Of a stretch of DNA of 64,000 nt, positions 3,233 through 57,318 are shown one piece after another. The translations under genes were made by a program, and so were the position numbers. This stretch comes from Antedon bifida (taxonomy: Eukaryota > Echinodermata > Crinoidea > Comatulida > Antedonidae), in contig OY727098.1 of assembly GCA_963402885.1 (NCBI GenBank), positions 6,009,001 to 6,073,000 of the forward strand. Direction: 5' to 3'. How positions within the stretch are numbered: position 1 is the stretch's first letter; every line of letters starts with the position of its first letter. The notes beneath the pieces were generated by a model. The model did not search any database. It had not been told where the DNA came from and saw nothing but the letters and a program-made list of their open reading frames with translations.

Positions 3233-37547
<34,315 letters not shown>

Positions 37548-40994: not shown

Positions 40995-43790
40995 ATGGCG
41001 TTTCGAGTGAATCTACGAGAAGAGAATGCGAAATACTTGTCTGAAAGGAAGCTGAAAATCCATAATCCTCTTATGCTTGCAGTTGTACTAGGACAAGAGG
41101 AAAGGGTGTGTAGCCTTCTCAAAGATGGGGTCGATCCAAATATTCCAGCCCAGATAGAATGTCTGGCGGTGTCTCAAAATGAAGACGGCTCTAAAGACAT
41201 ATTAGAAGAACTTAGTCTGAGTAGACCAACACCGCTAATTGCCGCTGTGTGTTTTAGACGACTGGATATTGCTAAAATTCTTCTGGACAACGGCGCAGAT
41301 AGTCAAGGTGTTGATATACATGAACGAACTCCTTTGGCGTATGCAGTAGGCTTTCAAATAACATCTGTGGAAATGATAGAGCTGTTAATTGACCGTGGAG
41401 CAGATGTGAACAGAGCAGACAAATATGATAAAACCATCTTTATGCTTGCTTTAAAAAATCGTACTTTCCCTTTGAAGCAATTAGATATTCTTTTGAAGTT
41501 ATCAGATGTGACGAAAAAGGATCATTATGGACGCTCAGCAATTCATTTCATGTTGGAGCGGATGCATGACCGAAAGTTTCTAAATGAACAATTAAATGGA
41601 AAGCATGCATGTGTGAAGTTTCTTCAGGACCTAGTCACACGTGGGGTTGATGTAAACGAAAGAACATTTGATGGCGCGACACCTTTACATGAAGCTGCTT
41701 ATTCTAAATGTCCAGACTCCTTGAGTTTCCTTCTTGGTCACGGTGCATCATTAACATCTCGAAATGCACATGATATGACTCCACTGTTCGGCCTCTGTAT
41801 ATACGATTGCAGAAATGTTGTGTGTTGGGACACAGAAGTAAAGAATATGCGTAAATGTGTGTCAATTTTCGTCAATCATGGAGTGGATTTAAATATATCG
41901 CAAGAGCGCAACTGGAGATTGTTACACACATTTGTTAATATGTACCTGCAGCCAGATGTTCTTGATGATATGTTGGCAATTCTATTGGACGCAGGAGCAA
42001 ATCCGAATGCTGCTGATAACACAGGATTGACATCTTTACACAAGTTTGTGGGCTTTTGGAGTTCTGAGAAAACTGGATCGACTGAAAGGTCATTACGACA
42101 ACTACTCAGTAAAGGTGCAAACCCGAATGCAAAATCTCTTAAAGGAGATAGTCCTTTGCACCGAGTTGTACGTAGAGACAATGCGGTATTTGCACGAATA
42201 CTATTAGAAAATGACTCTGATGTCAACTTAGCAAACAATATGGGTATAACCCCTGTTCATTTGGCAACCCATGGAGATGAGATATTTTCTCTTCTACTTG
42301 ATCATGAGAGTAATTACCAAGCAAACTGGGCCATCCAGGACGAAAATGGCTCTACTCCCTTGCACTGGATAGCGTCAAGTAGAAATGCTAGAGCAAAAAT
42401 TACCCGACTGGCACAAGTGGTAGAAAAATATGTATATCCATTGGATGCGCAAGGTAGAACCTATCATGACCTGCTGATGCTTTGGGGCGTCATACCAAAC
42501 CCAAACAATATACATGCTGTGCCAGTGAAATCAATATTTTCACATTTTGAAAAAGGGATGCCCGATTCGGAATGGATAAAATGTCTCAAGCACTATGAAA
42601 GTGGTGAAAGTGAATGTTCGGTGAATACACTTGTGTTGAACATTTTGAGCAGAAATGATATGGGTTTATCTATTAATACCACAGAAAACAAAGAGATCGA
42701 GGAGTTGATAAGGCATGTGCTGACACAAGCATTAGACCAGATGACAAAGGAAGAACCCTTAGTGGCCTCAGAATTGGTGCTAGCAGGAAGCGTCAGGGAA
42801 GGCACGAAGACGGATTTTCCAGATGAATTTGACGTTCTGTGTGTTTTAAAGAAAATAGAAGACTTCTTTCACCCAGAAATTGACGAGTATGTGCCTCATG
42901 GAATGATAAAACTTGTCCTAAATGAAGACGTCAAGCATGATGGAATACCACCTATGCAACATGTGCATAAATTTACCTTGCAGGGTGGAGAGTTACTAGG
43001 TTCCTCTCTCACAAGGATCGTGTACCACAACCTAGCTCAGAACATCGAGCAAATTGTTACGAACAATAAAGAAACTAAAAAACTTGAAGTGATCAAGTCT
43101 TTGAATGATATGAAAGGAAGCATTGATACCTGTACCTTCCTGTACTTCGGACATACCTACCATTTTCTTTCAATAGACGTGGACGTGGTAATAACCATTG
43201 AACTTCCGAACTGGAAGCCACCAGAGTACTTTAGGGCAAGTGGCGCTTTAGTAACACCGAAAATATGCAAGGCACCTCTTCAAGTTGTGTTGCGAAACGT
43301 ACATGCTTCCAACCCAAAACCCTTAGTTTCTGACGTCTACTATAGGGTGTCTGTTGCCAGATGGGAGACAGAAATATTTTGCAATATGCCATCACCAATT
43401 AAAAGAGCCTATATTGCGATTAAAGCCATCGTTCATGAGCCTTCACTTCACGTCGGAATTGACAACGGAGAGACACTGATTATCACTTATATGGTGAAAA
43501 ATTGTTGTTTCCACGCTATAGACGACCATCTTCAACTAACTGGAACACCTTTTGACGATTGGGTTATCTCCATGAGGAAAGAAAAGGGAAACAAGGCCAT
43601 GTCAGTTCAATGGATGACTAAAATATGTGAAGTATTCCGCAAGTGTGTCGACAAATCTTGCTTACCAAGCTACTTCATTCCATCTATAAATCTCTTTCAT
43701 GATGAAATGGGCAGGTTAAAATATGACATCAATTCTCTGGATTCAGCAGTTTACAGATTGGAAACCGTGTTAACAAATTATGAAATTTAA
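40995..43790 (+). CDS. Ankyrin-repeat cGAS-like receptor (cGLR, Mab-21 fold), single exon, 931 aa
   Basis: Probable cytosolic nucleic-acid or pattern sensor that makes a cyclic dinucleotide, by analogy with cGAS and animal cGLRs. Residues ~24-470 hold about 11 ankyrin repeats (TPLHEAA, LLDAGANPNAAD, SPLHRVV). Residues ~495-925 are a Mab-21/cGAS nucleotidyltransferase: G598-S599, then E611-F-D613, with Ser-to-Glu spacing of 12 as in human cGAS. The third carboxylate is D730 in DVDVVITIE, aligning with SVDIILALE of cGAS. The helical half has SPIKRAYIAIKAI and TLIITYMVK. I see no cGAS-type zinc thumb. An in-frame TAA three codons upstream and a good start context (gaaATGG) fix the start. There is no intron, while its neighbours are intron-rich, so retroposition or a tandemly spreading family is possible. 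The enzymatic product is not predictable from sequence. Confidence 0.92.
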   Translation: MAFRVNLREENAKYLSERKLKIHNPLMLAVVLGQEERVCSLLKDGVDPNIPAQIECLAVSQNEDGSKDILEELSLSRPTPLIAAVCFRRLDIAKILLDNGADSQGVDIHERTPLAYAVGFQITSVEMIELLIDRGADVNRADKYDKTIFMLALKNRTFPLKQLDILLKLSDVTKKDHYGRSAIHFMLERMHDRKFLNEQLNGKHACVKFLQDLVTRGVDVNERTFDGATPLHEAAYSKCPDSLSFLLGHGASLTSRNAHDMTPLFGLCIYDCRNVVCWDTEVKNMRKCVSIFVNHGVDLNISQERNWRLLHTFVNMYLQPDVLDDMLAILLDAGANPNAADNTGLTSLHKFVGFWSSEKTGSTERSLRQLLSKGANPNAKSLKGDSPLHRVVRRDNAVFARILLENDSDVNLANNMGITPVHLATHGDEIFSLLLDHESNYQANWAIQDENGSTPLHWIASSRNARAKITRLAQVVEKYVYPLDAQGRTYHDLLMLWGVIPNPNNIHAVPVKSIFSHFEKGMPDSEWIKCLKHYESGESECSVNTLVLNILSRNDMGLSINTTENKEIEELIRHVLTQALDQMTKEEPLVASELVLAGSVREGTKTDFPDEFDVLCVLKKIEDFFHPEIDEYVPHGMIKLVLNEDVKHDGIPPMQHVHKFTLQGGELLGSSLTRIVYHNLAQNIEQIVTNNKETKKLEVIKSLNDMKGSIDTCTFLYFGHTYHFLSIDVDVVITIELPNWKPPEYFRASGALVTPKICKAPLQVVLRNVHASNPKPLVSDVYYRVSVARWETEIFCNMPSPIKRAYIAIKAIVHEPSLHVGIDNGETLIITYMVKNCCFHAIDDHLQLTGTPFDDWVISMRKEKGNKAMSVQWMTKICEVFRKCVDKSCLPSYFIPSINLFHDEMGRLKYDINSLDSAVYRLETVLTNYEI

Positions 43791-45935: not shown

Positions 45936-46786
45936 TTCCTTATTCAAATTCAATTAAAAGGACAGTTCACAAATATATTTTTAAAAACAGATTTTAATAC
46001 GTAATAACTGTCTAATTGAGGTGTTATTGCATCAACATGTTAGCCTTGACCTCCTCTACTTCTTCCGGTCAAAGTTCAATAACATTTTATGCATTTACGC
46101 CCTCTACGGCGAATAAGTAACTAGCTTTTACGAATGATATAACACTTGACCTACTTAATATTTTCAAAATATTTTGGTATAGATCGATGACCCTTGACCT
46201 AATCTACCATTTTCCACCCTAGTTCCGCAAACTTTTTTGCATCTACGCCCTCTACGGCGAATAAGTAACTGGCTTTACGAACGTTATAACACTTGACCTG
46301 CTTAATTTTTTCAAAATATTTTGGTATGAATCGATCACCCTTGACCTACTCTACCGTTTGCCACCCCAGTTCCGCGAACTTTTTTGCGTCTACGCCCTCT
46401 ACGGCGAATAAGAAACTGGCTTTACGAACGTTATAACACTTGACCTACTTAATATTTTCAAAATATTTTGGTATAGATTGATGACCCTTGACCTACTCTA
46501 CCATTTTCCACCCTAGTTCCGCAAACTTTTTTTGCATCTACGCCCTCTACGGCGAATAAGTAACTGGCTTTACGAACGTTATAACACTTGACCTGCCTAA
46601 TTTTTTCAAAATATTTTGGTATGAATCGATGACCCTTGACCTACTTTACCATTTGCCACCCCAGTTCCGCGAACTTTTTTGCGTCTACCCTCTACGGCGA
46701 ATAAGTAACTGGCTTTTACGAACGTTATAACACTTGACCTACTTAATTTTAAAAAATATTTTGGTATGAATCGATCACCCTTGACC
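45936..46786 (+). repeat. Left foldback arm: ~147-bp tandem repeats
   Basis: The word ctctacggcgaataag recurs at about 46103, 46249, 46398, 46546 and 46690. Units also carry aacgttataacacttgacct and tcaaaatattttggtat. Units are inverted relative to 54118-55190. Confidence 0.93.
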
Positions 46787-46940
46787 TATCGTAACTATTA
46801 TCACTCAATGAATAGTGTGCGCTTTTTAATTGTTAATATTAACGGTAACAGTATTAATGAATATGTTAATTTTGCTGTTATAAGGTAGTGTAAACTGTTT
46901 TTAAGTAACAGTTGCTGTAATGACATTCGAAAAAAAACCA
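46787..46940 (+). repeat. Inner repeat of the foldback, copy 1
   Basis: tattatcactcaatgaatag through aagtaacagttgctgtaatg recurs in the same orientation at 53617-53745, with a partial copy near 53395. These are direct, not inverted, repeats. Confidence 0.8.
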
Positions 46941-47863
46941 TTAGTTCAGCTTTGTTTGTTTTTTTGTGCGCTTATACAGGCGCGGATTTAGAAAAAAAAA
47001 TTTATCAGCCATGTCTTTTTAAAATAAAATAATGACTATTTTTATTTGTCTGCAACACGTCGGATCGTTTATCATTTAGGCCCGGGCCTAGTTTAATTAT
47101 TATTAAGTTATCTTAATAAACGGTCGCTGAATAACGAACGTTGTGTGTGATCTATTTGCCGCACACGCACCCTCTAATAAGAAATTTCACACGACGTCTC
47201 TCGTACGTACGACGAAGGATTGAAAAAACAATTCCTTTTGACGTACACGCACCCTCTGATAAGAAAATACCATTCGCGTTCCAGCATGGTGTAGTCCATT
47301 ATACGTGTAAAATTAGGGGTGTCCACTTTTTGGTACTAAATTTTAGTACCAAAGTTAAACACGCACCTCAACCGAAGATCGTTGGAAGTATATTATATTT
47401 ATATGTTATCGCACCCACCTCAATAATCCAGCCGACAGATCATCGAAAAATCTTGTTTAACAACGTCATACACTAAATAACCGAACGCGTTTTTACCGAA
47501 CTCAAGGAAATGTGGATTATACTAACAAAAAAGCTTCAGAAATCGAAACTCGGAAAATAACTATAATTTATATTCTACTACATAATTCAATTCAATTCAA
47601 CTTTATTTCAGACAAACTGTCCATATGAAACATATAAATACAATAAAAAATAATACAAAGCATTATGTGACAACCGTCATGGAGAGAGGACTAATAATTA
47701 TTTGTTGACATATAGTGCCTCTTAAAATATGTGGATTATGTTTTGAGGTTTATTGGATGTAGACTGTAGACATTATTATATTATTGATTACTATAGTTTA
47801 CAAAACAACACATTATTATGGCTATACTGATACTAGTTAACACACGTAAAAGTATACATGAGA

Positions 47864-50698
47864 TTATATATACAAAAGTTCTGTCCATTTTCTATGCAAC
47901 TTTGAATCTTTTAGAATACGAGAAAAAACACATGTAATTAAAGTATTACAGCTTTTTTCAATTTTTGTTTTGAAACAAAAAATTGATTTCCGAATGTACT
48001 CATAGAAGGAGGGAACATGGTTATCAACATACATAGCACTAGCACTACAGCTCCTTGAGCGTCTTAAAATCTTTCTAAGTGCGTTATTATAACAGACCTG
48101 TAATGACTTTATAGTTTTTACATTAAAATCGCACCATAAGGCCGCACAATACATACTAATACAGTATGACTTAAACAAAGTAATCTTAACATCTGTTGAG
48201 CATTTACTAAATTTCCTACAAAGAGAGTTACCTCTAATACATAATGATCGATATTGCCTTTTAATATCCAGTTCGTCCCTAGTATCATTGCTGATAACAC
48301 AACCAAGGTAGGTAGTGGATTTAACGTAATTTAGTTCTTTACCACATAGAACAGTAACATAATTACCATTCAGTTTTCTTTTCCTAGGGCAAAAACACAT
48401 GCAAATTGATTTTTTTGAATTATATAATACATCAAAGTCATTAGCAAAATCCTCACATATGTTAACCATCTTTTGGAGGGCATCTAAAGAGGGCGCAAGT
48501 AACACCATGTCATCTGCATAACTTAAGTTGTTGAACTTTGTATTATTGAGCTCACAACCAAAATTACAATCACTAAGCATACTGTTTAAATTGTCAATGT
48601 AAACATTATATAACAGAGGAGACATAACACCACCCTGTCTAACGCCATTGGTAACTTTAAAACCTGAAGACATAGAGTTACCCCATCTAACAAAAAATCG
48701 TTGATTCTCATACCAAGATTTTAGAAGTCTAATAGCAATAATGTTTGTTTCTCTCATAATTAATTGCCTGTACAGTGACCAGTGATTGACTCGGTCGAAC
48801 GCTTTACTCGCGTCGAGAAAACAAGTAAATACGGGGCTCCCATTCCTATTATAGTAATCCACTATCTGCTTAAAAACAAAGATACAAGTATCCGTTGAGT
48901 GTTGACTTTTAAAAGCAAACTGGTGATCCCCTGACTTAAGGGTATCTCCACAATAATTGATTAACAATGTTTCAAATATCTTAGATACAACAGAAGCAAG
49001 AGCTATAGGCCTATAATTATCCATACTCGTAATGTCACCAGATTTACTCTTAATTATAGGTACCAGTACAACTCGTACCATTTCATCAGTGACATGGCCG
49101 TGAATACACATAGCATTAAAACATAAACTAAGTAAAGTAATAACATGTTTTGAAGCATACTTCAAATGCTCTGCACTAAGCCCGTCAAACCCAGGGGATT
49201 TACAACTATTGAGCTTATTTATACTATCCAATATATTACTATCAGTACAAATTTTATCATCAAAAGCAGATACATTAATTTCATTAAGATGTCTTTCAAC
49301 ATAAATTCTATGAGTATCATTGTTAACACAATTGAAAAGCTTCTCATAATGATCAGCCCATGTTTTACATATATTATTATCCCCTCTAACATCATTAATA
49401 ATGTTAGATGAACCAGAAGATGAGTTGTTCATACGCTTTACGTTATTCCAAAAACTGTTAAAATCGTTATTAATATAAGAGTTCGCAATCTTATCAGCTC
49501 GAAGTTGCTCTTCATTCTGTCTGCAGTTCCGAAGAGCCAGTTTAAAACGAGATCTAGCAACTTTCATGGTATCAAATAAAGGACCATGTCTAGGTTTCCC
49601 ATTAAATTTCCACAACAAGAAAGCTTCCCTAGCTATATCATGAGCTTCCGAAACATAGTCGTTCCAACCGGGAACAACGTTAAAAGATTTACTTTCATGC
49701 GAAACAAATGAATGATTAGCAGCTTGATTAAGACAAGAAATTATATTATTATACAAAGTATCAATATCATCAAAATGTTTAGTGTCACCACAATTCACAT
49801 CATTGCATGAACATACTGAAGGAGGAATAACAACATCATTAAGCAACAATTCAGTACGCTCCTGATAGTTGTAAATTTCCTGATGAGTAACCTTCTGCCA
49901 ATTTATATTGCTTGTATAATTCTTTTGGTTATCTTTTTCATGTTCAATTTCAAAAGAAAAATCATAAACAAAGCAAACTGGAAAATGATCCGAACCGATC
50001 ATGTCATAACGTATGGAAAGCTCTTTTATCCGAGCATTAGCTCCGTTGGTAGACAGGACATGGTCAAGCCAACTCGTTGTAGCAAAAGCATCACTGATAT
50101 AAGTAAAGTTATCAGAGTGCTGTCCTAATAAATTTAAATCAGTTAAAATTAAGTCGCACTCGGATGTAAAATTTAACAATTCAGCACCAAATCTTTTTTT
50201 GTGATCAGCATTAAAATCACCACATACAATAACTTTATCACCATGGAAATCACTAATTATAGATTGAATTGTACCCAGGTAGTCAACAAATTCAGCGAAG
50301 TGCTCATCGCACTCATAAGGAAGATATACATTGATAAAGAGTGTAATATCATTACCACTTCCTAGTTCCAAACCAATAATCCTATTGTCGTTGTAATTAA
50401 CTGTTTTGATGTAGTCGTGCAAACATTTTCTATAAAATATGGCAATGCCTCCATAGGGGCGTCCTTCAAGTAAGCCATCGGAACTCTTAACAGACGATAT
50501 CCCAAAACAATCAAACTCTTCATGTAATGATTTTAATATAGGTAACTCGTCATCAAGCAGCCAATGCTCCTGAATGGCAATAATATCATTACTCATGCAA
50601 AGATCATAAATTTCTTTTTTGCGAGATTTAAATGACCTACAGTTAAAAGAAACACATTTCAGTTTACTACAATTAATTTTAGATTCACTATCCATCAT
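47864..50698 (-). CDS. LINE ORF2: AP endonuclease and reverse transcriptase, 944 aa
   Basis: Makes and primes the cDNA of the element at its target. The N-terminal ~240 residues are an APE-type endonuclease: FNCRS, QEHW, GGIAIF, CGDFNAD, SWLDHVL and SDHFPV. The middle ~300 residues are a reverse transcriptase: KSPGFDGL, NYRPIAL, CFLDASKAFDRV, RQGGVMSPLLYN and the catalytic LSYADDMVLLAP. The C-terminal ~200 residues have a CR1/L2-like tail with several Cys. The frame is fully open, which suggests a young insertion. The start ATGATGG overlaps the end of the upstream ORF by 11 nt, suggesting reinitiation. It lies within the foldback element. Confidence 0.93.
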   Translation of the reverse strand: MMDSESKINCSKLKCVSFNCRSFKSRKKEIYDLCMSNDIIAIQEHWLLDDELPILKSLHEEFDCFGISSVKSSDGLLEGRPYGGIAIFYRKCLHDYIKTVNYNDNRIIGLELGSGNDITLFINVYLPYECDEHFAEFVDYLGTIQSIISDFHGDKVIVCGDFNADHKKRFGAELLNFTSECDLILTDLNLLGQHSDNFTYISDAFATTSWLDHVLSTNGANARIKELSIRYDMIGSDHFPVCFVYDFSFEIEHEKDNQKNYTSNINWQKVTHQEIYNYQERTELLLNDVVIPPSVCSCNDVNCGDTKHFDDIDTLYNNIISCLNQAANHSFVSHESKSFNVVPGWNDYVSEAHDIAREAFLLWKFNGKPRHGPLFDTMKVARSRFKLALRNCRQNEEQLRADKIANSYINNDFNSFWNNVKRMNNSSSGSSNIINDVRGDNNICKTWADHYEKLFNCVNNDTHRIYVERHLNEINVSAFDDKICTDSNILDSINKLNSCKSPGFDGLSAEHLKYASKHVITLLSLCFNAMCIHGHVTDEMVRVVLVPIIKSKSGDITSMDNYRPIALASVVSKIFETLLINYCGDTLKSGDHQFAFKSQHSTDTCIFVFKQIVDYYNRNGSPVFTCFLDASKAFDRVNHWSLYRQLIMRETNIIAIRLLKSWYENQRFFVRWGNSMSSGFKVTNGVRQGGVMSPLLYNVYIDNLNSMLSDCNFGCELNNTKFNNLSYADDMVLLAPSLDALQKMVNICEDFANDFDVLYNSKKSICMCFCPRKRKLNGNYVTVLCGKELNYVKSTTYLGCVISNDTRDELDIKRQYRSLCIRGNSLCRKFSKCSTDVKITLFKSYCISMYCAALWCDFNVKTIKSLQVCYNNALRKILRRSRSCSASAMYVDNHVPSFYEYIRKSIFCFKTKIEKSCNTLITCVFSRILKDSKLHRKWTELLYI

Positions 50699-51326
50699 GA
50701 TGTATTGTTTGCCTTATCGGTTCATAATACCGTCTGATTATAGCAGATTGAGGCCAGAGCTCCGCTTCATTAATACAGTTCTTATGTGCAAAACCGCATT
50801 CAACCATAAACGAAGTATAGTCAGAACGCTTACTAGGCAACACTTCCACAGTAACGTCAATTTTCTTTACTCTTTTTAGATACGATTTTATTTCTTCCGC
50901 TTTAGTATCAGGACTCAGATTTCCTACATACATCTTGTAAGGTGGGGGATCCCTACCTTTTAAAGCAATATCAACACCGGTTCCACGCTTGAAATTACCC
51001 CGTTTGCGTTTTCGTCTTGGGTACTGAAAGCCGTCATCACAATCCATCCAATCACGAGCGTCCGGATCACTGGAAGGCGGAGCTTGCCTACGCGCATGAG
51101 TCATTACGTCATGTTTGTTTACTTCTGGACGGGTAATTCCCCTCTTCAATACTGGTACGGTAGCTGATTTCACAAACTGTGTTACCGAAGCGGAGTTGCT
51201 GTTCTTACTATTAGCAACTGGGCCGGTATTGGTTGCTACTACGTTAGAAAACAGTTTGTTACTTACAGTGTTTGTAATAGGTTGCAAATCACGATCAGCT
51301 AACTTTTTGTGGGAATCCATTAACAT
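50688..51326 (-). CDS. LINE ORF1, C-terminal part with RRM-like domain, 212 aa
   Basis: Probably the RNA-binding part of the element's ORF1. A basic stretch RRKRKRGNFKRG is followed by an RRM-like fold, YKMYVGNLSPDTKAEEIKSY, ending ELWPQSAIIRRYYEP. This arrangement is typical of ORF1 in CR1/L2-like elements of marine invertebrates. The upstream ORF ends 33 nt before the ATG used here and is in another frame, so either ORF1 is frameshifted or two proteins are made. The ATG chosen is the first in the frame. Confidence 0.75.
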   Translation of the reverse strand: MLMDSHKKLADRDLQPITNTVSNKLFSNVVATNTGPVANSKNSNSASVTQFVKSATVPVLKRGITRPEVNKHDVMTHARRQAPPSSDPDARDWMDCDDGFQYPRRKRKRGNFKRGTGVDIALKGRDPPPYKMYVGNLSPDTKAEEIKSYLKRVKKIDVTVEVLPSKRSDYTSFMVECGFAHKNCINEAELWPQSAIIRRYYEPIRQTIHHDG

Positions 51327-51358
51327 CCCTCACTTGTTGAGCAAGTTTACATCGCTGG

Positions 51359-51904
51359 TTAGTAGCGTAGGCATGTGTCGGCCTTAACACAATGGAATTC
51401 TATCCTCAACCTTTGTAGTTCTCTGAAAATCAATGGGGCATCAATAGCATCCACAGGCACAACCGGTATTTTATTAAGGTTTGCTGCAGCAAAAATAGGC
51501 AATTTAGACAGGTCACATTGGATGAGATAGCCCAACACATCATTTAGTATACCATCAGCTTTGCGTCGAGGTTTATGAATCGCATTTTCAGGATCACCTA
51601 CACAGACGCATAACATCTCCTTGGCCTTCTTTATGTCATCATTTGGAAAATTGGCCATACAAATAGCATGTAACCGATCAAATGTCATACTACCCATGTT
51701 ATTGACTATAAAGCACAGAAGTTCATTAATCAATACATCATTTGGACCTTTTCCAGTGGAATCATGATGATCAAATTGGGTGTCATCATCTTCATCAGCA
51801 CCACCATGATTAGCATTCGAGTTATCATCATGATCGCCATGTAATTGACTTCGTTGTAGAATGTCTTCGGTTCCAGCTAGCCCCCTTTCAGATGACGCCA
51901 TCAC
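51359..51904 (-). CDS. LINE ORF1, N-terminal part, 181 aa
   Basis: Acidic start, then a helical domain (LINELLCFIVNNMGSMTFDR; ILNDVLGYLI; LNKIPVVPVDAIDA; RELQRLRIEF) that commonly heads ORF1 of CR1-like retrotransposons. It ends at a stop just before the RRM-bearing frame opens. ATG at 51904 with a second Met next to it; start context not distinctive. Confidence 0.7.
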   Translation of the reverse strand: MMASSERGLAGTEDILQRSQLHGDHDDNSNANHGGADEDDDTQFDHHDSTGKGPNDVLINELLCFIVNNMGSMTFDRLHAICMANFPNDDIKKAKEMLCVCVGDPENAIHKPRRKADGILNDVLGYLIQCDLSKLPIFAAANLNKIPVVPVDAIDAPLIFRELQRLRIEFHCVKADTCLRY

Positions 51905-52800
51905 TACGCGCCAATTTCAAGGGGACGCTACCGGTCAAACAATGGGCTCACACAGGTTGGACAAAAGGTGATCCCAATGACAGTTCGGGCTAGCTTTTAC
52001 TGACACAGAGACTGATAAAAAACATCAATCTTAACAGAATATCTTCACCGATCTTGAATTTTCATACTAGTAGTACATTACCCAAATATATAGGCCTACT
52101 AAATTTTCAAAATCCTGTTAGATTTGTATCAAAAATCGGGAAAATAAGTCAAATGTCCGGAAAAATCAAAACATCACGTCCGAAGTCGTTGAGTTACATT
52201 ATTCTCCTTTTCATTGGCTTAATTTTTACCGTGGTTAAAACTCTGTGTATGAATAGTTGTAGTTAAGGCCTACAAGCAAATTTTTCATGTTTTCTCCGTC
52301 CGCTGCTACTAGCAGCTATTAGTTAGGCTAAGTAGCTTGCTGTTAGGGTCTTGGTTGGCTTCACATGCCTTTTTTGATCGCATTGTTTGAAACTAAACGA
52401 AACACAGGACGGTAGACGCTAAACATCGTACCTTATTTATTATTATTATATGGATCGTAAGATGTAGACAGTCCTCTTCTACTACTACGTACGCTATCTG
52501 ATGAATAGGGGAAATCCCCCAAAAAATGTTTGCGGGTAGAATTTTTTTTTTTTTAATTCCACCCGGGCGCTCAACCGGAAACAAGCTGTTTTTTATTTTG
52601 GCCTAGTTATTAAAATATTTTTTAATGTTGGCCTTGGTGCCCCTTCGATTTAAAACAAATGGCCTTGGTGCCCTACCCATTTGGCCTTGGTGCCCCTCAA
52701 ATCAACGAAAACCAGAGGCCAAATGGCCTTGCCCATAAAATCCCCAAATTGACCCTCCCTACAATTTGTGACGTTTTTAAAAAAGAATGCATATATATAC

Positions 52801-52940
52801 CTTAAAAACATTAAGCCATGTCATTCCTTGTCTTAAATGTACGTTTTATGGTAAATATGATAAAAAGAGAGAAACATGCACTAGGCCTACCTAAGTAGCT
52901 CGCGGTGAATCCTCTCGTGGACGGTCTTTAGGCCTAGCCT
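52801..52940 (+). repeat. Dispersed repeat, copy 1
   Basis: cttaaaaacattaagccatg through tcgtggacggtct recurs at 62814-62950 with about 90% identity by eye. The segment includes taagtagctcgcgg. Confidence 0.85.
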
Positions 52941-53616
52941 TTTTGTAGGCCTAATTATTTGTCGGGGGAAATTTCTTTATGATGTATTTCATTGGCCATG
53001 GTGTTGAGGAGATAATTTCATAGCAATAAACAATATCTACAAATGTCATTGTACTCTTATTTATTCAGTGCGAGTTTTGTGATCCTCTTGACAAAAAATA
53101 CATGCGGTCTAATCTATGCCGCCTTACAGTATGTTCGTTTACATATTTTGTATAGCTGCATTCACTGAAGCTGTTGTTTTTGTGTGTGAGATTCTGATGG
53201 TCATTGATAAAAAAACAATCCATAAATCAGTCTTGAAAGCGTCAGATACCGAAATTTTCCCGGGCCTTCGGCCCTTGGACCCCGACCGGGGCCTTGGCGG
53301 CCCCCTGGCCCCCAGCTACTTACAGTTCAACATTACATTTGTTACATTACAATTATTGTATTGTTTTTAAAACAACTTTCATCACCCAGGGAAGAATGTG
53401 CGCTTTTTAATTGTTAATTAATAAAGGATTATTAATGAATATGTTTCACATTAAAGGTTAAAGGCCTATTTCACAATATGTTAATTTTGTTGTTATAAAG
53501 TCTATAAGCCTAAACCGTTTTTCAAACAATATTCCACCCAATTTAGTTTGTGAGGTATAGACGGCCGGGTACTGTGCAAATATAGTTTTACAAATATTAC
53601 TGTATATTGTGTTTAA

Positions 53617-53745
53617 ACGACTATTATCACTCAATGAATATTGTGCGCTTTTTAATATTAATAACAGTATTAATGAATAATATGTTAATTTTGCTGTTAG
53701 GTAGTGTAAACTGTTTTTAAGTAACAGTTACTGTAATGACGTTTA
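53617..53745 (+). repeat. Inner repeat of the foldback, copy 2
   Basis: Same orientation as 46787-46940; shares cgctttttaat, taatgaat and gtaaactgtttttaagtaac. Confidence 0.8.
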
Positions 53746-54117
53746 AAAAGATATTACATTTGATCGATTGCAACTGTTGTAATTAACGAGAAAAAATAGC
53801 CTGGCATAACATTTATTGAAGTGGGGCGGTATTGAATAACTATACAGTGTGTCGTCACATGTTGACGTAAGAAGTTATTTATTAGTTCTAGTTTATATAC
53901 TACGATAGAGCCTACTTTAAATGCTGTTTTAATTTCAGGTAGTCATGTTGTACTTGTGTTGAAAAGTTTTAATGAATCATAACGGAATAATAACTTGTGG
54001 TTATCGTTTATAACCAAACTGTTGTATTTGTGTTTGCTTCAGAAATTATCTTCTAAAATTGCATGTTGTAACAAGTCAAAACAAAACTAAAATGAATTGG
54101 CCATAAAAGGACATAGG

Positions 54118-55210
54118 TACAAGTTCGCGGAACTAGTTTGGCAAATGGTAAAGTAGTCAAGGGTCATCTAACCATAACAAATTACTTATTCGCCGTAGAG
54201 GGCGTAGATGCAAAAACTATTTTGAAAAAATTAAGTAGGTCAAGTGTTATAACGTTCGTAAAAGCCAGTTACTTATTCGCCGTAGAAGGCGTAGACGCAA
54301 AAAAGATCGCGGAACTGGGTTGGCAAATGGTAAAGTAGGTCAAGGGTCATCGATTCATACCAAAATATTTTGAAAAAATTAAGTAGGTCAAGTGTTATAA
54401 CGTTCGTAAAGCCAGTTACTTATTCGCCGTAGAGGGCGTAGATGCAAACAAGTTCGCGGAACTAGGGTTGCAATTGGTAAAGTAGGTCAAGGGTGATCGA
54501 TTCATACCAAAATATTTTGAAAAAATTAAGTAGGTCAAGTGTTATAACGTTCGTAAAGCCGGTTACTTATTCGCCGTAGAGGGCGTAGATGCATAACAGT
54601 TCGCGGAACTGGGGTGGCAAATGGTAAAGTAGGTCAAGGGTGATCGATCCATACCAAAACATTTTGAAAAAATTAAGTAGGTCAAGTGTTATAACATTCG
54701 TAAAGCCAGTTACTTATTCGCCGTAGAGGGCGTAGACGCAAAAAAATTCGCGGAACTGGGGTGGCAAACGGTAGAGTAGGTCAAGGGTGATCGATTCATA
54801 CCAAAATATTTTGAAAAAATTAAGCAGGTCAAGTGTTATAACGCTCGTAAAGCCAGTTACTTATTCGCCGTAGAGGGCGTAGATGCAAAACAGTTCGCGG
54901 AACTAGGGTGGAAAATGGTAGAGTAGGTCAAGAGTCATCGATCTATACCAAAATATTTGGAAAATATTAAGTAGGTCAAGTGTTATAACGTTCGTGAAAG
55001 CTAGTTACTTATTCGCCGTAGAGGGCGTAAATGCATAAAATGTTATTGAACTTTGACCGGAAGAAGTAAAGGAGGTCAAGGCTAACATGTTGATGCAATA
55101 ACAACTCAATTAGACAGTTATTACGTATTAAAATCTGTTTTTAAAAATATTTGTGACTGTCCCTTAATTGAATTTGAATAAGGAACTAGGAACTAGTAAC
55201 CAACTTCACA
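54118..55210 (-). repeat. Right foldback arm: ~147-bp tandem repeats and outer end
   Basis: cttattcgccgtaga occurs seven times, the last six spaced 146-148 bp, inverted relative to the left arm. Outside the array, 55040-55210 mirrors 45936-46100 and then 44558-44584. Confidence 0.93.
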
Positions 55211-56457: not shown

Positions 56458-56467
56458 GCATTAATAG

Positions 56468-57308
56468 GGGTGTGTAGAAAGCGACGACCTCGAATTGGAC
56501 GACCCCAACGACCCGGGCGACCTCGAATTGGACGACCTAGAATTGGACGACCCATAACACGAAACCGACGACCCCTATAGCCTAGCCTAGCCTAGGCCTA
56601 AGTGTGGTATTAACATCCCGAAGCCGAACATAGCCAAAGATCTTTAAACCATACCTTATATAATACTCGCAAGCAAGCAATTGGTTGAAAAAATACAGAA
56701 ATATCGCCATTTGATACTGAATGTGTCGACACGAACAAACGAACATATATGGAACGCCAAGAGTGCATCATTAAAACTGCATTTGACTCGATTGGCACAC
56801 GAAATATCATAAACATGGCAAACCGGGTAAAAAAACGGCCCCTTTTTCAGCGGCGGGTAAGGTTTGCTCAGTGGATTGGACATCGCTAACCCAAATAATC
56901 AAATCAAATCAAATCACCTTACCCGCCGCTGAAAAAGGGGCCGTTTTGACCTGATTTCCCATGTTTATGATATTTTGTGTGCTAATCGAGTCGAATGCAG
57001 TTTTAATAATGCACTCTTGGTGTTCCATATCTGTTCGTTTGTTCGTGTCGACACATTCAGTATCAAATGGCGATATTTCTGTATTTTTTCAATCAATTGC
57101 TTGCTTACGAGTATTATATAAGGTATGGTTTAAAGATCTTTGGCTATGTTCGGCTTCGGGATGTTATACCACACTTAGGCCTAGGCTAGGCTAGGCTATA
57201 GGGGTCGTCGGTTTCGTGTTATGGGTCGTCCAATTCTAGGTCGTCCAATTCGAGGTCGCCCGGGTCGTTGGGGTCGTCCAATTCGAGGTCGTCGCTTTCT
57301 ACACACCC
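56468..57308. mobile_element. Hairpin foldback element, 841 bp, 10-bp target duplication
   Basis: Arms 56468-56862 and 56917-57308 are inverted copies around a 54-bp loop containing (caaat)n. The outer ends GGGTGTGTAGAAAGCGACGA match perfectly. Outer parts consist of ggtcgtccaattcgagg words. The perfect direct repeat gcattaatag flanks it at 56458-56467 and 57309-57318. A 9-11 bp duplication suggests mobilisation by a Mutator-like transposase (inference). Confidence 0.93.
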
Positions 57309-57318
57309 GCATTAATAG

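Follow-up and report, generated by a model that had tools for sequence, protein, structure and literature searches.

The window, that is the whole stretch of 64,000 nucleotides analysed here, comes from the crinoid Antedon bifida (GenBank assembly GCA_963402885.1, contig OY727098.1, positions 6,009,001 to 6,073,000 of the forward strand). At 40995-43790 (+) it carries a frame of 931 codons running from ATG to stop with no internal stops. The corresponding stop-to-stop frame opens two codons 5' of the ATG, so any upstream coding run-in would need a splice acceptor within the frame. The gene has the following parts (window positions; "ankyrin members" are the window protein and its six ankyrin-bearing relatives in this genome):

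40995..43790, + strand: whole open reading frame, 931 amino acids plus stop; ankyrin array, linker and Mab-21/cGAS-like nucleotidyltransferase (NTase) with C-terminal helical lobe
41061..42410, + strand: ankyrin-repeat array, residues 23-472, about 10 repeat-like units (Pfam Ank_2 and repeat scan; some units weak)
42477..42665, + strand: linker, residues 495-557, model confidence mostly low
42666..43787, + strand: NTase core and C-terminal helical lobe, residues 558-931 (profile match, AF2, Foldseek)
42786..42791, + strand: G598-S599, the GS motif, which opens a helix in the model topology; kept in 7/7 ankyrin members
42825..42833, + strand: E611-x-D613, catalytic acids 1 and 2, on model strand 117-124; kept in 7/7
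43182..43184, + strand: D730, catalytic acid 3, in the profile column that falls on the third Asp of Cv-cGLR1 and cGAS, and on model strand 231-243; kept in 7/7

The surroundings contain several other features. A low-complexity open frame of 1274 codons at 33723-37547 (+), for which Pfam gave nothing at E 0.01, is perhaps a large exon of a neighbouring gene. A LINE-like frame with endonuclease and reverse-transcriptase domains occupies 47864-50713 (-) and is flanked, within 45970-55155, by inverted arrays of a 147-bp unit whose 561-nt arms are 95% complementary and lie 8.1 kb apart. The outer arm has 242 genome matches (247 candidates, 40 scored); among the matches listed, 41 cover nearly the full length at 95% or higher and the rest are partial. 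Nested inverted repeats at 56460-57316 have arms of 151 nt (99% complementary) and 223 nt (95%), with 15-bp minisatellites at mirrored places. Short arrays of a 21-bp minisatellite unit, identical or similar from place to place, recur on both strands at positions 133, 4066, 12029, 18233, 24310, 32932 and 60440.

An earlier note, made from the letters of the window alone, had described about 11 ankyrin repeats fused in one frame to a Mab-21/cGAS NTase. The fusion was confirmed by the open frame, by Pfam, by a profile search and by the predicted fold. The ankyrins are recognised strongly (Ank_2, E 3e-42, 143.5 bits), and a crude consensus scan counted 10 units from residue 23 to residue 472. How many of these units stand by themselves? 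In 200 shuffled sequences the best score was at most 36 in 95% of cases and 44 at the maximum. Four units score above this maximum, four others (39, 43, 43 and 43) fall between 36 and 44 and are singly not beyond chance, and two (32 and 33) lie below the 95% mark and are doubtful. The figure of about 11 was reasonable, but the count is approximate, the scan giving 10 units, several of them weak. Eight phage records were also matched, with the best place in each consisting of ankyrins only (Wolbachia phage WO and Leptospira phages). In viral contigs seven stretches fitted a peptide pattern, and none of them encoded a relative.

Taken alone, the window NTase lies below the Pfam cut-offs, with 16.1 bits for PF03281 and 22.9 bits for PF20266 (cut-off 24.1 bits each), and the Mab-21_C match of the window protein is sub-threshold at E 9.4e-5. 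The Pfam search proposed in the earlier note thus succeeded for the ankyrins, but not for PF03281 with this protein by itself. In a phmmer search of the PDB with the window protein, the best matches were the cGAS chains 7kxs and 7lz3 (E 0.0013), and the alignment with cGAS is ungapped from GS to ExD, in agreement with the claim that this spacing equals that of cGAS. A profile of four members, consisting of the window NTase and three genome relatives, matched Cv-cGLR1 (8gjw) at E 8.4e-15 and cGAS chains at E 6.9e-12 to 5.5e-9, and also Mab-21-like 1 (E 2.4e-7) and MB21D2 (E 0.0012). In the three profile alignments printed, GS, ExD and the third Asp fall on their counterparts in Cv-cGLR1 and cGAS.

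The fold was predicted with AF2 for residues 495-931 from 22 aligned rows (the window protein and 21 relatives). The model reached pLDDT 82.4 and pTM 0.83, with 238 of 437 residues at 90 or above; the stretches below 50 are the linker and model residues 277-280. In the model GS stands at the start of a helix that follows a strand, and ExD and D730 are on strands. A single-sequence AlphaFold2 run on the full frame gave pLDDT 38.9 and was set aside uninterpreted. Foldseek found 674 matches of the AF2 model in the PDB, 260 of them at E 0.001 or better; the best 50 of the 674 are all cGAS or Cv-cGLR1, at probability 1.00 and E 3.8e-15 to 5.6e-13, with TM scores of 0.67-0.75 by target and 0.54-0.63 by query. 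Structure prediction against cGAS, as the earlier note had proposed, therefore gave a clear match, and the lack of a Mab-21/cGAS match, which the note had named as a refuting outcome, did not occur: the NTase has such a match both in the profile (E 8.4e-15) and in the fold. All five residues named in that note (G598, S599, E611, D613 and D730) were found in the frame, and the topology of the model together with the alignments is consistent with their clustering. Homology, fold and catalytic residues place the window protein in the Mab-21/cGAS superfamily: the sequence relation appears in the profile, and the NTase core with its C-terminal helical lobe in AF2 and Foldseek.

Is this gene alone in its genome? 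We searched 315.6 Mb in 27 contigs. PF03281 gave 53 matches, all above the cut-off, and since the window gene and two of its relatives, L039 and L050, are absent from these, there are at least 56 NTase places; these are places and not genes, and the search scored the best candidates. Searches that used the window NTase and, in addition, three relatives as queries, together with a reading of PF03281 places, yielded six ankyrin-NTase relatives: L016 (C1), L034 (C7), L032 (C15), L048 (C11), L050 (C12) and L039 (C11). The idea of a paralogue family was thereby borne out, the window gene being one of at least seven ankyrin-NTase genes.

Ankyrins and NTase share a single frame in L016, L034, L032 and L048, and these four pass the PF03281 cut-off, which is missed by L039 and L050. 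In the latter two the ankyrin frame is adjacent to the NTase frame, upstream of it and on the same strand. Frame-keeping GT/AG pairs between the two frames (57 in L050 and 35 in L039), and a GTAAGT-like donor at the end of the ankyrin frame in each, are the grounds on which we read both as genes with an intron there, which likely splits their ankyrin and NTase frames. The end of the C-terminal lobe of L016 is absent from its frame, and reading three frames by eye across about 1.5 kb of downstream sequence did not reveal it, so that this gene may be truncated or may end in a far exon. As a separate observation, an uninterrupted piggyBac-like transposase frame of 716 amino acids (L016:87-2234, + strand; DDE_Tnp_1_7, E 7.6e-79) lies about 1.5 kb from this ankyrin-NTase gene with the shortened lobe (L016:3718-6183, - strand).

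Phylogenetic relatedness was evaluated with a tree of 35 NTases (7 ankyrin, 13 stand-alone or solo, 14 long of about 660-710 aa, and 1 Mab-21-like), which took in the fetched and kept frames out of the at least 56 places. Five fetched matches with short or split frames (L006, L019, L023, L025 and L027) and L033 (871 aa, odd N-terminus) stand outside the alignment and tree. The ankyrin, solo and long groups each occupy one side of a branch, with support of 100/99, 99/99 and 100/99, respectively, and several ankyrin rows sit on long end branches. The window NTase is 29% identical to its nearest genome relative (E 8.9e-23) and 15-26% identical to the NTases of the other ankyrin members (20-26% in the four-member alignment). 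In the four-member alignment G598, S599, E611, D613 and D730 are among the invariant columns; in the 35-sequence alignment the same G, S, E, D and D, together with an E-x-T-K step after GS, are kept in 7/7 ankyrin members.

The two other groups have features of their own. The long class consists of 14 frames of single-frame Mab-21 proteins (among them L015, L017, L018, L020, L021, L022, L024, L026, L028, L029, L030 and L031) with GS, DxD and the third Asp kept and a C-terminus of about 300 aa; a Pfam search with three of these C-termini found nothing above cut-off. Stand-alone cGLR-like genes, most of them basic with QGS, lie in two clusters, at C9:15.71-15.85 Mb and C9:16.43-16.52 Mb, within which L061 is acidic amid close basic relatives.

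Does the window protein belong to the cGLRs as these have been catalogued? PMC9980059 gives the screening motif h[QT]GS X8-20 [DE]h[DE]h X50-90 h[DE]h. The catalytic GS, [DE]h[DE] and third acid of this definition are present in the window protein and in 7/7 ankyrin members. The strict motif fails in the window protein at LAGS and at the spacer of 114 residues from ExD to the third Asp. In 6/7 ankyrin members GS is preceded not by [QT] but by A, A, V, S, G or A; 12/12 solo members whose start is complete have Q there. If any residue is allowed for "h", the motif is matched by 1/7 ankyrin, 12/13 solo and 5/14 long members, the failing solo member being L063, whose start is absent. The X50-90 spacer has little power to discriminate, as it can be fulfilled by other acids, and the ankyrin clade is not alone in its departure, since the long class matches in 5/14. 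Held to the letter of the published motif, the window protein falls outside the strict cGLRs; judging from homology, fold and catalytic residues, it most likely works like one. Cataloguing by motif would leave a gap here, as 6/7 ankyrin members and 9/14 long relatives would fail the published pattern.

The earlier note had left it undecided whether such fusions were already catalogued. As described in PMC9980059, 87% of cGLRs have no extra domain and some carry ankyrin or TPR modules, while three of 42 Stylophora pistillata cGLRs come as fusions with additional domains, ankyrins and death domains among them. The architecture is therefore already known from print, and the points of interest are the departure from the motif and the acidic NTases.

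The window NTase has a pI of 5.8 and a net charge of -11 (whole protein, pI 6.0). NTase pI is 4.9-6.1 in 7/7 ankyrin members, 8.3-9.5 in 12/13 solo relatives (the exception, L061, has 5.7; L063 is partial) and 5.1-9.0 in the 14 long relatives; at full length the five single-frame ankyrin proteins also have 4.9-6.1. A rank test on NTase pI gave p 0.0003 for ankyrin versus solo and p 0.038 for ankyrin versus long members, but since clade members do not count as independent, what is contrasted is clades and not independent events. The charge of the spine helix showed a weaker contrast between ankyrin and solo members (p 0.013, relatedness ignored), with outliers in L034 (+2) and L062 (-10) and a stretch of merely 12 residues in L039. 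The pI and net charge of the window NTase, which describe the whole region rather than its surface, speak against a basic DNA-binding face like that of cGAS. No Cys-rich, zinc-ribbon-like insert was seen when the alignments were read by eye at what we take to be the place and motif of the cGAS zinc ribbon, and an identity as zinc-ribbon cGAS was rejected on this ground.

According to PMC9980059, nucleic-acid-sensing cGLRs have a pI above 8.5, and for acidic cGLRs a positively charged, non-nucleic-acid ligand has been proposed; our values refer to the NTase region and were computed with Biopython, whereas that work used DTASelect. Read by this rule, the acidic NTases of the ankyrin members would support an input other than nucleic acid. 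The earlier suggestion of such an input is strengthened by 7/7 acidic NTases but stays a suggestion. Could the NTase nevertheless sense dsRNA or dsDNA, with the ankyrins placing the protein or recruiting partners? The kept catalytic residues and the top profile and fold matches, cGAS and Cv-cGLR1, are what such a sensor would have, but the acidic charge of the window NTase and whole protein, its recurrence in all seven ankyrin members and the Cys-rich insert not seen by eye make this unlikely.

We give rather less credit to a catalytically silent scaffold or developmental Mab-21-like protein, which would keep the fold and signal by protein contacts only. Some superfamily members, L001 of this genome among them, lack catalytic residues (in the alignment L001 has EG for GS and Gln at the third acid), and the Ala before GS in the window protein departs from the cGLR motif. 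However, catalytic residues kept in 7/7 proteins of low mutual identity are hard to explain without catalysis. An OAS-like or other NTase with a linear product instead of a cyclic dinucleotide is very doubtful: low sequence similarity leaves the product chemistry open, but the Mab-21_C match, although sub-threshold, points elsewhere, and other NTase families are not found among the best 50 of the 674 Foldseek matches.

The single exon had been taken in the earlier note as a hint of retroposition, and this was not supported. The NTase lies in one open frame in 26/27 solo and long relatives of the tree (L063 lacks a start), a count that covers the NTase part of the genes and excludes the five matches with short or split frames; 2/7 ankyrin members (L039 and L050) look intron-split. 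Because single-frame NTases are common in the relatives, a single frame is no sign of recent retroposition here, and with the nearest relative at 29% identity no recent parent copy was found in the genome. Between 40000 and 46000 no stretch of A reaches nine, and no flanking direct repeats of 14 nt or more were seen around the gene. Its intronless coding frame notwithstanding, a recently retroposed copy or pseudogene is very unlikely with 931 intact codons, so distant a nearest copy, common single-frame relatives and no such A run nearby, while an ancient retroposition event is possible.

A candidate reader for the product may be encoded in the same genome. STING_LBD gave 15 exon-sized genome matches; 14 exceed the cut-off, and in 4 the matched frame is broken by stops. 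The 15 lie within C9:20,658,532-20,702,487 (L053-L056), about 44 kb, which to judge from the sequence is probably a tandem array of several genes.

With moderate confidence we therefore favour a predicted enzyme of dinucleotide-messenger synthesis, gated through its ankyrins by a cue other than nucleic acid. The ankyrin array would bind a protein, either a pathogen's or a host protein disturbed by pathogens, or would clamp the enzyme in an autoinhibited state. Binding of protein to the ankyrins would release or order the NTase active site, and the NTase would join NTPs into a dinucleotide, probably cyclic, which STING-like receptors might read as part of a putative immune response.

If the ankyrin members form a clade with shared departures, then we can ask: do they represent a receptor class of their own? 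We offer only tentatively the proposal that ankyrin-cGAS-like enzymes form a class of animal immune receptors which separated long ago, senses proteins and not nucleic acids, and has departed from both the [QT]GS pattern and the basic NTase. If this were true, an ankyrin solenoid would read a pathogen effector or guard a host protein and turn on the synthesis of a nucleotide messenger; the class would be a cGAS-type counterpart of protein sensing of the NLR type, and catalogues based on the motif would under-count it. What activates those animal cGLRs whose cue is other than nucleic acid is an open question, for which the seven acidic ankyrin members give a concrete set of proteins, with the ankyrin arm as a natural handle for ligand finding in a genome with a STING-domain cluster.

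Among known systems, the ankyrin-cGLRs of PMC9980059, including some of Stylophora pistillata, share the ankyrin-NTase fusion, a comparison made with their description there. A further shared feature is an animal with many cGLR-like genes and several STING-domain pieces. A possible difference is that 6/7 ankyrin members of the present genome lack [QT] before GS. Cv-cGLR1 of Crassostrea virginica (8gjw) is the best profile match (E 8.4e-15), reaches a TM score of 0.75 by target and shares GS, ExD, the third Asp and the T-K step after GS; it differs in that its solved chain (355 residues) has no ankyrins, and its identity in Foldseek is 16%. Mammalian cGAS has the same fold (Foldseek, E 3.8e-15), catalytic residues and GS-to-ExD spacing, with 16-20% identity in the Foldseek rows of the best 50 of 674 matches. 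Unlike it, the window protein has an acidic NTase and an ankyrin N-terminus, and no zinc-ribbon-like insert was seen. The 13 stand-alone cGLR-like genes of the same genome belong to the same superfamily and keep the catalytic residues in 12/12 cases with a complete NTase start, but they form a separate clade, with a basic NTase in 12/13 and QGS in 12/12 complete members.
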